A stretch of DNA of 64,000 nucleotides from Amniculibacterium aquaticum (lineage in GTDB: Bacteria; Bacteroidota; Bacteroidia; Flavobacteriales; Weeksellaceae). Of the stretch, positions 195-45,863 are shown piece after piece; the first letter of the stretch is position 1; each line of letters opens with the position of its first letter. A program made the position numbers and the translations under genes. Location of the stretch: positions 1 to 64,000 of the forward strand of contig NZ_REFA01000007.1 in the NCBI RefSeq assembly GCF_003852705.1, read 5' to 3'. The notes beneath the pieces were generated by a model. It saw nothing but the letters and a program-made list of their open reading frames with translations. It had not been told where the DNA came from and ran no database searches.

Positions 195-1679
195 TTATTT
201 TGAATGATTCAAGGTGTTGGTGTCTATATTAATGTTGAGTCCCATGGCGATCTTCATTCCTAATTCAATATTGGCACGGAAGAAATGGCAGAGTTGCCTG
301 TTGATGATTTCCTCTCGTTTAGGACCAGAAATTTTGCTCATATGATCAATAATATTTTGTATTAACCGTCCCTTTTCTTCAGGATTTAAGACTTTAGTAT
401 ATAGAAGTCCTGGTTGAGTATAGTGATCGTCTTCGTTTTCATTTCTATTGTAGTGTCCTACCCAATTGCTGTCCAATTCGTAATTGTTGTTTTTGTATTT
501 TTCATCAGTAACAATGTCATCAAAACTATTTGGAGAATAATTTGGTGTGTCACCGGCTGGGTTGGTTGCCATTGCGCCGTCTCTTTGATAGTTGTGATAG
601 CCGTATGGACAGGCGTTTACCGGAAGTTGGTGGTAGTTGGCACCCAAGCGATAGCGTTGTGCATCGGGATAGGAAAATATTCTGCCTTGCAGCATTTTGT
701 CGGGAGAAAATCCTATTCCGTTTATAATCTGACTTGGTGAAAAAGCCGCCTGCTCAACATGCGCAAAGTAATTGTTCGGGATTTCGTTGAGTTCTAAAAT
801 GCCTACTTCGATAAGTGGAAATTCTTGATGAGGCCATACTTTGGTAACATCAAAAGGATTCCAGCGGAATTCTTTTGCTTGTTCATCAGACATAACCTGA
901 ATGTACAGCTTCCATTGTGGAAATTGTCCTTTTTCTATAGATTGGCAAAGGTCTTCTTGAGCAAAATCTGGATTTTCTCCCGCTAATTTCGTCGCTTCGT
1001 CATCCGACCAATTTTTTATCCCTTGCAGTGTTTTAAACTGAAACTTTACCCAAACTTGTTGGTTGTCGTTATTGGTCATGGAAAAGGTATGAGAGCCGTA
1101 GCCGTTCATGTGGCGGTAACCGTACGGCGTACCTCGATCCGACATTAAAATTAAAACTTGATGTAAGCTTTCGGGATTCAAACTCCAAAAATCCCAAATC
1201 GCCGTGTGGCTTTTCAAATTGGTTTTGGGGTTTCGTTTTTGAGTGTGGATGAAATCGGGAAATTTTTTAGCATCTTTTATGAAAAAAACCGGAGTGTTGT
1301 TTCCAACAATGTCCCAGTTCCCCTCTTCGGTATAAAATTTCGTGGCAAAACCTCGCGGATCTCTTGCGGTATCGGCTGAGCCTTTTTCTCCACCAACAGT
1401 AGAAAATCTGGTGAAGGTTCTGCACGAGTTGCCCACCTTAGAAAATAGCTTTGCTTTGGTATAAGAACTGATGTCTTGGGTTACCGTAAATGTCCCGTAA
1501 GCACCGCTGCCTTTTGCATGAACCACGCGTTCTGGGATTCTCTCGCGGACAAAGTGTGCTAAGTTTTCTTGCAACATGAAATCTTGTAACAATACAGGGC
1601 CTCTAGGTCCTACGGTTTGCGAGTCTTGATGCTCAAAATAAGGGTTTCCTTGTGCTGAAGTTAATTTTTTGTTGCTCAT
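195..1679 (-). CDS. katA: Heme catalase
   Basis: A 494-residue monofunctional heme catalase that breaks hydrogen peroxide down to water and oxygen in the cytoplasm. The catalytic-His segment RIPERVVHAKGSGAYGTF lies near residue 50, and the proximal heme-ligand segment FSYPDAQRYRLGANYHQLP lies in the second half, where its tyrosine binds the iron. The length fits small-subunit catalases of about 480-500 residues. The frame stays open another 51 codons upstream, but MSNKKLTSAQGNPYFEHQD at 1679 is the family's usual start, and the extension would cover the promoter. It is divergent from oxyR, which points to peroxide induction. The gene symbol is chosen by family. Confidence 0.95.
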   Translation of the reverse strand: MSNKKLTSAQGNPYFEHQDSQTVGPRGPVLLQDFMLQENLAHFVRERIPERVVHAKGSGAYGTFTVTQDISSYTKAKLFSKVGNSCRTFTRFSTVGGEKGSADTARDPRGFATKFYTEEGNWDIVGNNTPVFFIKDAKKFPDFIHTQKRNPKTNLKSHTAIWDFWSLNPESLHQVLILMSDRGTPYGYRHMNGYGSHTFSMTNNDNQQVWVKFQFKTLQGIKNWSDDEATKLAGENPDFAQEDLCQSIEKGQFPQWKLYIQVMSDEQAKEFRWNPFDVTKVWPHQEFPLIEVGILELNEIPNNYFAHVEQAAFSPSQIINGIGFSPDKMLQGRIFSYPDAQRYRLGANYHQLPVNACPYGYHNYQRDGAMATNPAGDTPNYSPNSFDDIVTDEKYKNNNYELDSNWVGHYNRNENEDDHYTQPGLLYTKVLNPEEKGRLIQNIIDHMSKISGPKREEIINRQLCHFFRANIELGMKIAMGLNINIDTNTLNHSK

Positions 1680-1747
1680 AATGAAGAGATTTGTATGAAA
1701 AATACAAGTAAATAAAGAGTGGTGTATCCTGTATTTTTTTGTCCACC

Positions 1748-1755
1748 CAAATTTA
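1748..1755 (-). promoter_or_regulatory. Candidate -7 promoter element of catalase
   Basis: The minus strand reads TAAATTTG, a match to the Bacteroidota -7 consensus TAnnTTTG, 69 bases upstream of the catalase start. No clear -33 element is visible. The 138-bp katA-oxyR gap is the likely OxyR binding region. Confidence 0.45.
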
Positions 1756-1789
1756 CCACGAAAAATTAGAAATAAAAGAAAAATCGTAA

Positions 1790-1797
1790 TATCTTTG
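1790..1797 (+). promoter_or_regulatory. Candidate -7 promoter element of oxyR
   Basis: TATCTTTG matches TAnnTTTG and lies 20 bases upstream of the chosen oxyR start. It supports starting the protein at 1818, because the upstream in-frame TTG at 1797 lies inside the promoter itself. Confidence 0.5.
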
Positions 1798-1817
1798 TGA
1801 TAGATAATATATATCCA

Positions 1818-2774
1818 ATGAACATTCAGCAATTAGAATATCTTATCGCGGTAGATAAGTACAAACATTTTGGTAAGGCAGCACAAGCGTGTTTTATTAC
1901 CCAACCGACCCTTAGTGCAATGATTCAAAAGTTAGAAGACGAGTTGGATGTGAAAATATTCGACCGAACGACTCATCCTATCCGGACGACAGATGTTGGG
2001 GTGAAGATCTTGGATCAGGCCAGAAAAGTGATAGATGAAGTCAATGAACTGAGAAACACAGCCAGTCTTCTGAACAATGTTTTGGCAGGAAGACTTAATT
2101 TGGGGATCATCCCAACGGTATCTACTTTTATATTGCCCAAAGAAATTTTTGATTTTTTACAGTTGCATCCAAAGATTGAACTGAATGTGAAAGAAATGAC
2201 CACGGAAAATATCATAAAGTCTCTAAAATCCGGTGAGTTGGATGCGGGGATTATTGCAACGCCTTATGATGCCGCCAATGAGTTTTACCAGGATTTTATT
2301 TTCAATGAAGAACTCATGGTCTATTCGGCAACGCAACAAAAGAAAAACGAAGATTCTTTTGTCATTCCGGAAGAAATAGACATCGATAAAGTTTGGTTAT
2401 TGGAAGAAGGGAATTGTCTAAGAACTCAATTTGAAAATATTTGCAATTTGAAAGAGAATACCCTGAAACCCAAAAATCTGGATTTTATGGCATCCAATAT
2501 TCATACATTGTTGCAAATGGTGGATCGTGTAGGTGGAATTTCAATTTTACCGGAGTTGGCTGTTAGTCAGCTTTCAGAAGAGAAAAGGTCAAAAGTCATG
2601 AGGTTCAGAAAGCCGTTTCCGTATCGTGAAATTAGCGTGATCTATTATAAACCCACCTATAAGCAAAAAATTATCGACGAATTGGTGAATGAGATAAAAA
2701 ATACCATTAATCCAAAGCTGAACTATAACAGTTCGCCAGAAGATTTTGTGAACATTAAACCTCAAAAAAAATAA
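1818..2774 (+). CDS. oxyR: Hydrogen-peroxide-sensing LysR-type regulator OxyR
   Basis: A 318-residue LysR-family transcription factor. Residues 1-60 form the winged helix-turn-helix (MNIQQLEYLIAVDKYKHFGK, then TQPTLSAMIQKLE), followed by a substrate-binding-like sensor domain. Two cysteines at residues 200 and 209 (EEGNCLRTQFENIC) are eight residues apart. This is the same spacing and context as the redox pair Cys199/Cys208 of E. coli OxyR, which forms a disulfide on peroxide exposure. The divergent catalase gene is the expected target. The start at 1818 is preferred over 1797 because it gives the conserved LysR N-terminus. Confidence 0.93.
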   Translation: MNIQQLEYLIAVDKYKHFGKAAQACFITQPTLSAMIQKLEDELDVKIFDRTTHPIRTTDVGVKILDQARKVIDEVNELRNTASLLNNVLAGRLNLGIIPTVSTFILPKEIFDFLQLHPKIELNVKEMTTENIIKSLKSGELDAGIIATPYDAANEFYQDFIFNEELMVYSATQQKKNEDSFVIPEEIDIDKVWLLEEGNCLRTQFENICNLKENTLKPKNLDFMASNIHTLLQMVDRVGGISILPELAVSQLSEEKRSKVMRFRKPFPYREISVIYYKPTYKQKIIDELVNEIKNTINPKLNYNSSPEDFVNIKPQKK

Positions 2775-2790
2775 AAAGAGGCTTGTTTTC

Positions 2791-2821
2791 TTTGTTAATC
2801 AATTTATTGTCTGTAATTTTG
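2791..2821 (+). promoter_or_regulatory. metK promoter
   Basis: TTTG at 2791-2794, a 19-base spacer and TAATTTTG at 2814-2821 form a full match to the Bacteroidota promoter consensus. Transcription from here would give a leader of about 130 bases that contains the SAM-II-like element. Confidence 0.65.
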
Positions 2822-2837
2822 CTCCATTAAAAAAGTA

Positions 2838-2888
2838 GAGGAAAAATTTGAACTGATTGCAACCTCCTAAAAAAATGCTAAAACAGAC
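2838..2888 (+). ncRNA. SAM-II-like riboswitch in the metK leader
   Basis: The leader shows the SAM-II (metA motif) layout. P1 pairs GAGG at 2838-2841 with CCTC at 2863-2866. The loop contains the conserved TTGCAA at 2857-2862 immediately before the 3' arm of P1. An A-rich joint follows, with ATGCTAAAA at 2875-2883. A pseudoknot can form between CTG at 2853-2855 and CAG at 2884-2886. SAM-II binds S-adenosylmethionine and represses methionine/SAM genes; here it would give metK product feedback. CAGA at 2884-2887 can instead pair with a TCTG about 15 bases downstream, a possible alternative fold (inference). No covariance search was run. Confidence 0.75.
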
Positions 2889-2960
2889 TTTCTATTTTAG
2901 TTTCTGCTGTAATCATTTCTTGTTTTTCTATTTGTTAAATTAAAAAATACAAGAAAAATT

Positions 2961-4238
2961 ATGTCTTATTTATTCACATCAGAGTCCGTATCAGAAGGAC
3001 ATCCAGACAAAGTTGCCGACCAAATTTCCGATGCGCTTATCGATAATTTTTTGGCCTATGATCCCAGTTCTAAAGTAGCATGCGAAACTTTGGTAACTAC
3101 CGGTCAGGTGGTTTTGGCAGGTGAGGTAAAGTCCGATGCGTACTTGGATGTACAGACCATTGCAAGAGAAGTCATCAACGGAATAGGATATACCAAAGGT
3201 GAATATATGTTCAACGGTGACTCTTGTGGGGTTATTTCGGCCATTCACGAACAGTCAACCGACATCAACCAAGGGGTGGATCGTGTGGTATCTAATGACG
3301 ATTTCGAAACCCGTGCCAACGCACAAGGTGCTGGTGACCAAGGAATGATGTTTGGTTATGCCACCAACGAAACCGAAAATTATATGCCTTTGGCTTTGGA
3401 TCTTGCGCATTCTATCCTGAAGGAATTGTCTGATCTAAGAAGAACAGGGCAGATCTCTTACCTTAGACCCGATGCAAAATCTCAAGTAACCATCGAGTAT
3501 TCTGATGATCACAAGCCGGTTAGGATTGATACCATTGTTGTTTCTACTCAACACGACGATTTTGATAGCGAAGAAGAAATGTTGGCTAAAATTAAAAAAG
3601 ACATCATCGAAATTCTAATTCCTAGAGTAAAAGATACTCAGAAACCAGAGATTCAGGCTTTGTTCAACGATCAAATTCAATATCACATCAATCCAACAGG
3701 GAAATTTGTAATCGGTGGACCGCACGGAGATACAGGACTTACTGGTCGAAAAATTATTGTGGATACTTACGGTGGAAAAGGAGCTCACGGTGGTGGTGCT
3801 TTTTCAGGGAAAGATCCTTCAAAAGTAGATAGAAGTGCAGCTTATGCAACTCGACATATTGCGAAAAACCTAGTGGCTGCAGGTGTTGCAGATGAGGTTC
3901 TGGTGCAAGTTTCTTATGCAATCGGTGTGGCAAAACCTTGTGGTTTGTACATTAACACTTACGGGACAGCGAAAGTAAATCTGAACGATGGTGAAATTGC
4001 AAACTTGGTGAACGAGATTTTTGATCTTAGACCTTATGCCATTGAAAAGAATTTGAAACTTAGAAACCCAATTTATCAAGAAACGGCTTCTTATGGACAC
4101 ATGGGAAGAACGCCTTATGTAGCAGACAAAACCTTCAATGCAGGTAAGCCAAATGAAAAAACTGTAAAAGATTTAGAATTCTTTACTTGGGAAAAATTGG
4201 ATAAAGTAGATGCTATAAAAGCAAAATTCGGAATTTAA
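2961..4238 (+). CDS. metK: S-adenosylmethionine synthetase
   Basis: A 425-residue cytoplasmic enzyme that makes S-adenosylmethionine from methionine and ATP, releasing phosphate and pyrophosphate. The N-terminal signature [20 protein letters not shown] carries the catalytic His of GHPDK. The glycine-rich loop [20 protein letters not shown] near residue 275 is the second family signature. The protein is slightly longer than the roughly 385-residue E. coli enzyme, as is common in Bacteroidota. It has its own promoter and a SAM-II-like leader, so expression probably falls when SAM is abundant. A terminator follows, so it is a single-gene unit. Confidence 0.97.
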
Positions 4239-45680: not shown

Positions 45681-45863
45681 GGGCGAGCCGAAGGCGAGCC
45701 CAAAAAGACGAATCTCACAAGATTGAATAGAGTCTTTACCTGATGTCCTAGCCCAGATGGAAACGGCATCCTTTTGCTTGGCGATGGAATTTTGCGGTGG
45801 CAAGCAAAAGATAGAGTGAACAGCTGGACCGAATATCGAAAGAAGCTGTTCTTTTGAAGCTCC
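45681..45863. repeat. Structured intergenic element, copy 2 (Flavo-1-like candidate), with upstream hairpins
   Basis: From left to right: a compact hairpin at 45681-45701 (GGGC and GCC arms with a symmetric GA/GA internal loop and GAA loop); a second hairpin at about 45703-45737 (AAAGAC/GTCTTT with inner AATCT/AGATT); and the element proper from 45750. That element has AGCCCAGATGGAAACGGCAT, the perfect stem CTTTTGCTTG/CAAGCAAAAG (45771-45780 with 45801-45810), a hairpin AACAGCT/AGCTGTT (45819-45850) and a final GAAGCTCC touching the pyk stop. Its block order parallels the element at 39121. Confidence 0.5.

Follow-up and report, generated by a model that had tools for sequence, protein, structure and literature searches.

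The metK leader of Amniculibacterium aquaticum carries a SAM-II riboswitch of the Bacteroidota type that is already catalogued as RF01726. Comparison of leader sequences showed that a strand downstream of the aptamer, complementary to the aptamer 5' half, is conserved and co-varies between species, and this anti-aptamer strand is likely the expression platform of the metK SAM-II leader. The aptamer is not new; the expression platform is the added part worth following. The features of the leader are listed below with their coordinates in the window, by which we mean the whole stretch of 64,000 nt that was analyzed.

2814-2821 (+): Bacteroidota-type -7 promoter element TAATTTTG, seen in the sequence, 16 nt 5' of P1
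2832-2891 (+): SAM-II (long loop) aptamer, RF01726, 64.5 bits, E 4e-10
2838-2866 (+): P1 helix with enclosed loop, GAGG 2838-2841 against CCTC 2863-2866, from the sequence and the Rfam alignment
2857-2862 (+): TTGCAA, directly 5' of the P1 3' arm
2869-2875 (+): A-rich joint, from the sequence
2875-2883 (+): ATGCTAAAA, from the sequence
2884-2886 (+): CAG opposite CTG 2853-2855, 3-bp pseudoknot arm, from the sequence
2853-2886 (+): P2 pseudoknot strands, 5' CTGATTGC at 2853-2860 and 3' GCTAAAACAG at 2877-2886
2840-2861 (+): aptamer 5' half, to which the switch strand would pair in the fold proposed without SAM, from duplex energy and minimum-energy fold
2877-2901 (+): inner hairpin of the proposed SAM-free fold, 2877-2883 with 2895-2901, using the P2 3' strand
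2908-2929 (+): putative switch strand, pairing with 2840-2861 or, via 2916-2923, with the start region
2949-2956 (+): A-rich initiation region, -12 to -5 of metK, pairing with 2916-2923 in the proposed SAM-bound fold
2961-4238 (+): metK, methionine adenosyltransferase (SAM synthetase), TIGR01034, 515 bits against a cut-off of 309

A cmscan with all Rfam families matched the leader to RF01726 (SAM-II "long loop") 20 bits above the gathering score of 44, with an alignment to model positions 1-60. The E value of 4e-10 in the 64-kb window became 1.9e-12 in a 301-nt search, and the 2.55-Mb genome has no other match to the model at E ≤ 0.001. The match ends 69 nt before metK. The initial annotation had proposed a SAM-II-like riboswitch at 2838-2888, ahead of the gene that makes SAM. 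The RF01726 score and the core kept in relatives supported this reading, the Rfam match being slightly wider than the proposed span, and the TIGR01034 match with an ATG at 2961 identified the gene as metK. All features that had been named (P1 GAGG/CCTC, TTGCAA, the A-rich joint, ATGCTAAAA and the 3-bp pseudoknot partner) were found in the sequence. The SAM-II core order is present, with P1, the P2 pseudoknot strands, UUGCAA before the P1 3' arm and GCUAAA in the P2 3' strand; for the P2 assignment in the window we partly assume the pseudoknot architecture of the SAM-II class. Judged from its sequence, the aptamer presumably binds SAM.

The covariance model that had been suggested, RF00521 (SAM_alpha), has a consensus of P1 and a pseudoknot with UUGCAA and GCUAAA. 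It gave no match at E ≤ 1 in 2700-3000 and was rejected as the family of the window aptamer. A search of the whole genome with RF00521 also gave no match, and the control genomes were equally silent in the same search. P1, the pseudoknot, UUGCAA and GCUAAA are common to the window aptamer and the alphaproteobacterial RF00521 elements of metA, metX and metZ, whereas the RF00521 model does not match here, the target here is metK and an intrinsic terminator was not found here.

The RF01726 model scored over the cut-off in 31 of 40 genomes (A. aquaticum and 39 relatives), and metK adjoined the element in all 30 loci that were fetched from the 32 listed matches. Within the same family, 287 of 296 genomes had a match at E ≤ 0.001 and 286 were above the cut-off; the weak match of the one genome in between (G306) reads by eye as ffh coding sequence. 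The aptamer core is nearly invariant in the metK leaders of the family, and UUGCAA and GCUAAA, the conservation of which had been named as a check, are retained in related metK leaders. A chance resemblance with no riboswitch at all is practically negligible in view of the 64.5 bits, the metK context in 30/30 loci and the retention across the family. The nine family genomes without a match comprise one of genus g15 and all eight that were searched of genus g16. By eye, the aptamer was not visible in the metK leaders L223 (g15), L224-L227 (g16) and L228-L230 (0.6-Mb genomes of another family, f16), and cmscan of the L224 and L229 leaders did not find it. Two genomes with metK leaders lacking RF01726 (G016 and G017) retain a SAM-I match. 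In an order-wide sample, 111 of 146 genomes matched RF01726, 108 of them above the cut-off. The presence of RF01726 was confirmed by cmscan in Flavobacterium hibisci (L038) and Porphyromonas loveana (L107), and the aptamer was recognized by pattern only in leaders of Tenacibaculum, Polaribacter and Tannerella. In five leaders of the Flavobacteriaceae type (L038, L052, L055, L043 and L045) the P1 3' arm is separated from the GCUAAA strand by an extra stretch of about 20-60 nt that often looks hairpin-like by eye.

Weak second matches to RF01726 (31-36 bits) occurred in ten genomes of genus g20, and the G306 match is of this kind, standing alone. We considered them as second SAM-II targets and rejected this: the A. 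aquaticum genome has one match, and the weak extras, of which 5 of 11 were inspected, were taken as chance. Four of these (L210, L214, L215 and L222) are ffh coding sequence by eye; the fifth (L213), which has no UUGCAA, precedes an ORF that looks tail-sheath-like by eye.

SAM-II feedback on metK in a flavobacterium had initially been regarded as worth confirming; the surprise is reduced by reports of Bacteroidota SAM-II from 2005 and 2010. PMC1273637 (2005) mentions a few SAM-II occurrences in the Bacteroides group, and a table in PMC2864571 (2010) has the entry "SAM-II long loops, Bacteroidetes, marine, RF01726". The element described here shares the aptamer architecture, the conserved core and the phylum with that entry, with no difference at the aptamer level as far as the entry goes. 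The entry does not give an expression platform; one is proposed here. No paper on the expression platform of Bacteroidota SAM-II was found by title or by the start of the abstract.

Besides SAM-II at metK, the A. aquaticum genome has two SAM-I (RF00162) riboswitches before methionine-synthesis genes, one at G000:C18:24424-24533 (+; L243:1225-1334) and one at G000:C9:65446-65547 (-; L244:3947-4048). One of them precedes genes for a MetX-like acyltransferase and a homoserine dehydrogenase-like protein, both below the NCBIfam cut-offs, and the other precedes the gene for O-acetylhomoserine sulfhydrylase (TIGR01326, above the cut-off). Since the genome has both SAM-I and SAM-II, two unrelated aptamers would read one metabolite in one cell. 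Both classes scored over the cut-offs in 22 of the 40 genomes, SAM-II only in 9, SAM-I only in 3 and neither in 6. In two loci SAM-II and SAM-I lie back to back: they are 66 bp apart in G034 (L245:3220-3278 (-) and 3345-3443 (+)), where SAM-II faces metK and SAM-I a metH-like gene (metH by eye), and 136 bp apart in L012 (1266-1364 (-) and 1501-1559 (+)). SAM-III and SAM-I riboswitches also occur before metK; their aptamers are unrelated to SAM-II. The SAM/SAH riboswitch before metK in Rhodobacterales (text of PMC2864571) exerts the same SAM feedback on the synthetase through an unrelated aptamer. Elsewhere in the window, a catalase-like gene (195-1832 (-), by eye) is divergent from a gene for an OxyR-like LysR regulator (1797-2774 (+); NF008361, 213 bits, below the cut-off of 329) just upstream of metK, and a Flavo-1 RNA (RF01705, 65.7 bits) lies at 45746-45834 (+).

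The pairing of leader strands was compared in two sets of metK leaders. The family set of 97 loci gave 90 distinct parsed leaders in 41 clusters, and in the outside set the aptamer could be parsed in 68 of 101 leaders, which fell into 58 more distant clusters; clusters were cut at 70% downstream-leader similarity and are not phylogenetically independent, and the pairings had first been spotted by eye in sequences that are also present in the test sets. The outside set drops 33 leaders, 32 without a regex match and L062 for its 184-nt leader, although L062 carries an RF01726 match. L031-L033 were placed in the family partly on metK identity. In L153 the aptamer was parsed to end too early, so that the true P2 3' strand is counted as leader. 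A MAFFT alignment put the start regions of L152 and L023 in the wrong place and was set aside for the counting of pairs.

A TAnnTTTG-like element lies 5' of the aptamer in 41/41 family clusters and 51/58 others. The consensus promoter that had been annotated about 17 bases upstream corresponds in the window to the Bacteroidota-type -7 element TAATTTTG; a sigma-70 consensus scan of 2700-3000 found no promoter, and a promoter of the TAnnTTTG type would escape such a scan. The transcript start is expected 4-5 nt 3' of this element, a spacing taken from the text of PMC6847099.

In the window, 2908-2929 and 2840-2861 form a duplex of 19 bp including three G-U pairs, with -18.7 kcal/mol and a shuffle p of 0.012; the paired blocks of the switch strand are 2908-2915, 2917-2919 and 2922-2929. 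The unconstrained minimum-energy fold of 2838-2984 is the anti-aptamer structure together with the inner hairpin 2877-2883/2895-2901. Whole-fold energies were ordinary in the window (z -0.94, and -0.22 when only the stretch 3' of the aptamer was folded). Comparative support for the inner hairpin CUAAAA/UUUUAG was weak (3/41 family clusters with p < 0.05, Fisher 0.04).

For the anti-aptamer strand, the comparison across species paired the aptamer 5' half (32 nt) with the downstream leader up to 12 nt before the ATG, against dinucleotide shuffles. In the family the mean z was -2.08, with 21/41 clusters at p < 0.05 and 9/41 at p < 0.01 (combined Fisher 5e-21). Outside the family the same test gave a mean z of -1.99, 30/58 clusters at p < 0.05 and 12/58 at p < 0.01 (combined Fisher 1e-27). 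A repeat run together with the controls (n = 40 in two of the tests, for which one family leader did not have the length) gave p < 0.05 for the downstream leader in 23/40 family clusters (Fisher 3e-20) and 27/58 others (Fisher 2e-24). The controls were null. At p < 0.05, the upstream 70 nt gave 3/41 family clusters (Fisher 0.42) and 4/58 others (0.24), the first 75 coding nt none in the family (0.99) and none outside (0.995), and the leader reverse complement one in the family (0.22) and one outside (0.78). The aptamer 3' half paired with the leader at p < 0.05 in 2/40 family clusters (Fisher 0.013) and 5/58 others (0.003).

Leaders also fitted their own aptamer better than foreign ones, as would be expected if they are functional. 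The mean in the family was -17.49 versus -14.96 kcal/mol, and the double-centred value lay below zero in 34 of 41 clusters (Wilcoxon 4e-7; permutation 5e-5, which is the floor of 20,000 permutations); only 5 of the 41 family leaders, however, had no foreign aptamer that fitted better than their own. Outside the family the values were -17.57 versus -14.41 kcal/mol (52/58, Wilcoxon 3e-10). When family leaders were shuffled, on average 23.6 of 41 values were negative, and composition accounts for a minor part of the preference in the family, because the double-centred mean was only -0.48 (20 shuffles, range -0.95 to -0.03) compared to -2.53 for the real leaders; this control covers the family clusters. 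The register of the pairing varies by lineage: in L017 and L114 it involves chiefly the P2 strand and in L056 chiefly L1, and in L080 and L111 it covers most of the aptamer 5' half.

We then considered where the switch strand may act. When the aptamer is unavailable, the leader folds UUUCUUGU (2916-2923) onto ACAAGAAA (2949-2956), and as a duplex this start helix gains five further pairs reaching into the AUG. The start helix occupies the switch strand, and therefore the two states are mutually exclusive in the window. All three genomes examined from the genus retain it, and the same pairing is formed by other sequences in L015 (UGUGUGUUUU/AAAACACACA), L023 (UUCCUUUU/AAAAGGAA) and L017 (UUUCUUUUGU/ACAAAAGAAA). 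For the window alone the start pairing was not significant (duplex p 0.12, accessibility difference p 0.066), and the start codon itself is predicted to stay largely unpaired in the OFF state (0.64-0.74).

Across the family, the start segment (-16 to +3) paired with its own upstream leader at -5.57 compared to -4.36 kcal/mol with foreign leaders (29/41; Wilcoxon 9e-4, permutation 5e-5). The shuffled control reached -0.21 versus -1.21 for the real leaders, and the preference had a p of 0.015 after dropping the four clusters of the commonest sequence type. Tested against shuffles, 8/41 clusters were at p < 0.05 (Fisher 9e-5). The predicted openness of -15 to +3 was 0.60 with the aptamer and 0.45 with the aptamer removed, a difference of 0.15 versus 0.05 in shuffles (33/41, Wilcoxon 4e-6). 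With the aptamer removed, the start of family leaders was barely less open than in shuffles (0.45 versus 0.48; Wilcoxon 0.04, Fisher 0.15). Since this openness is about that of shuffled leaders, much of the predicted switching is opening in the free state, an effect that any U-rich strand held elsewhere would produce. Outside the family the start pairing was weak (7/58 at p < 0.05, Fisher 0.07); the comparison with foreign partners gave a Wilcoxon p of 0.025 and a permutation p of 0.002, and accessibility was above the null in 25 of the 50 clusters used (p 0.18), 8 of the 58 with leaders longer than 110 nt being excluded. We concluded that the leader comparisons support pairing with the start region within the family of the window only. 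Start masking as a phylum-wide rule is unsupported, given the weak pairing in the 58 clusters outside the family.

These results bear on other possible outputs of the same leader. The SAM-bound state might instead affect ribosome standby or how stable the mRNA is, and the anti-aptamer strand would then do no more than tune how sensitive the aptamer is. This would fit the many lineages that show anti-aptamer pairing without clear start pairing, and PMC9373788 describes altered mRNA stability by SAM-II in Sinorhizobium; the start pairing that co-varies above expectation in the family speaks against it, and we regard it as rather improbable. Since the leaders have much U and little G (family: T 0.49, C 0.18, G 0.09; outside: T 0.39, C 0.23, G 0.11), the main rival is that the same aptamer and anti-aptamer strand control transcription termination, either through Rho or in another non-canonical way. 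SAM would then free a U/C-rich strand for Rho loading, which without SAM would be hidden in the anti-aptamer helix. The pyrimidine-rich, G-poor leaders in both sets, and the conservation of the anti-aptamer pairing but not of the start pairing in both, are consistent with this. Part of this composition, however, is a consequence of being complementary to the purine-rich strand of the aptamer, and the start pairing co-varies within the family; we consider this output unlikely, at roughly one chance in four. Intrinsic termination by a hairpin and U-run has been predicted for many proteobacterial leaders, and terminators for proteobacterial SAM-II are described in the available parts of PMC1273637 and PMC2258182, the latter assigning them to most alpha- and beta-proteobacterial SAM-II elements and calling the mechanism not yet established. 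A simple scan for such sites found none in the window leader, none in the 41 family clusters and three in the 58 others, which makes this output very improbable for metK.

In the reading that we prefer, the metK mRNA carries a SAM-II (long-loop) riboswitch at its 5' end, which would exert feedback control on SAM synthesis through an anti-aptamer strand that masks the metK start. Without SAM, 2908-2929 would pair with the aptamer 5' half (19 bp) and the inner hairpin would take the P2 3' strand, leaving the A-rich region ahead of the start codon more accessible (ON). SAM would lock the pseudoknot before the switch strand can invade, and the freed strand would pair with -12 to -5 of metK and hinder initiation (OFF). 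The scheme would involve no Shine-Dalgarno sequence and no intrinsic terminator. Folding programs can score neither the pseudoknot nor SAM, and the energies without both are -17.3 kcal/mol for the anti-aptamer state with the inner hairpin and -8.6 kcal/mol for P1 with the start helix. This gap of about 9 kcal/mol in favor of the anti-aptamer state implies that the switch must be kinetic or strongly SAM-assisted: SAM would either take effect kinetically, while the switch strand has yet to be transcribed, or make up the difference.

Because of the results against start pairing, we restrict the proposal of translational masking to this lineage, and we hold the whole model, a SAM-II switch whose anti-aptamer strand masks an SD-less metK start, to be about as probable as its opposite. 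The direction of the switch and the translational level of control are inferred. More tentatively, and with the balance leaning against it, one shared switch strand may be complementary to both the aptamer 5' half and the A-rich metK start, so that the landing site would imitate the competing aptamer strand, and lineages would keep both complementarities while sequence and register change.

Hiding a Shine-Dalgarno sequence is not an option for SAM-II in Bacteroidota because the phylum lacks such sequences. The study of metA and metZ of Sinorhizobium in PMC9373788 offers a comparison: the SAM-II element of S. meliloti metA acts on translation from a far-downstream start, there 74 nt after the SD, as the element described here would do. 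In S. meliloti the SD lies inside the riboswitch and is hidden directly, whereas our proposal for metK has another strand, located downstream, that selects either the aptamer or the start region as its partner. In Flavobacterium johnsoniae, which is without SD, adenines at -3, -6 and about -12/-13 together with local structure tune initiation, according to the ribosome profiling in PMC6847099.

The comparative data lead to a concrete, testable SAM-II platform in Bacteroidota and point to individual nucleotides as targets for mutation. If start masking is true, it would tie riboswitch control to the upstream adenines and the structure that are important in F. johnsoniae, as reported in the same text.
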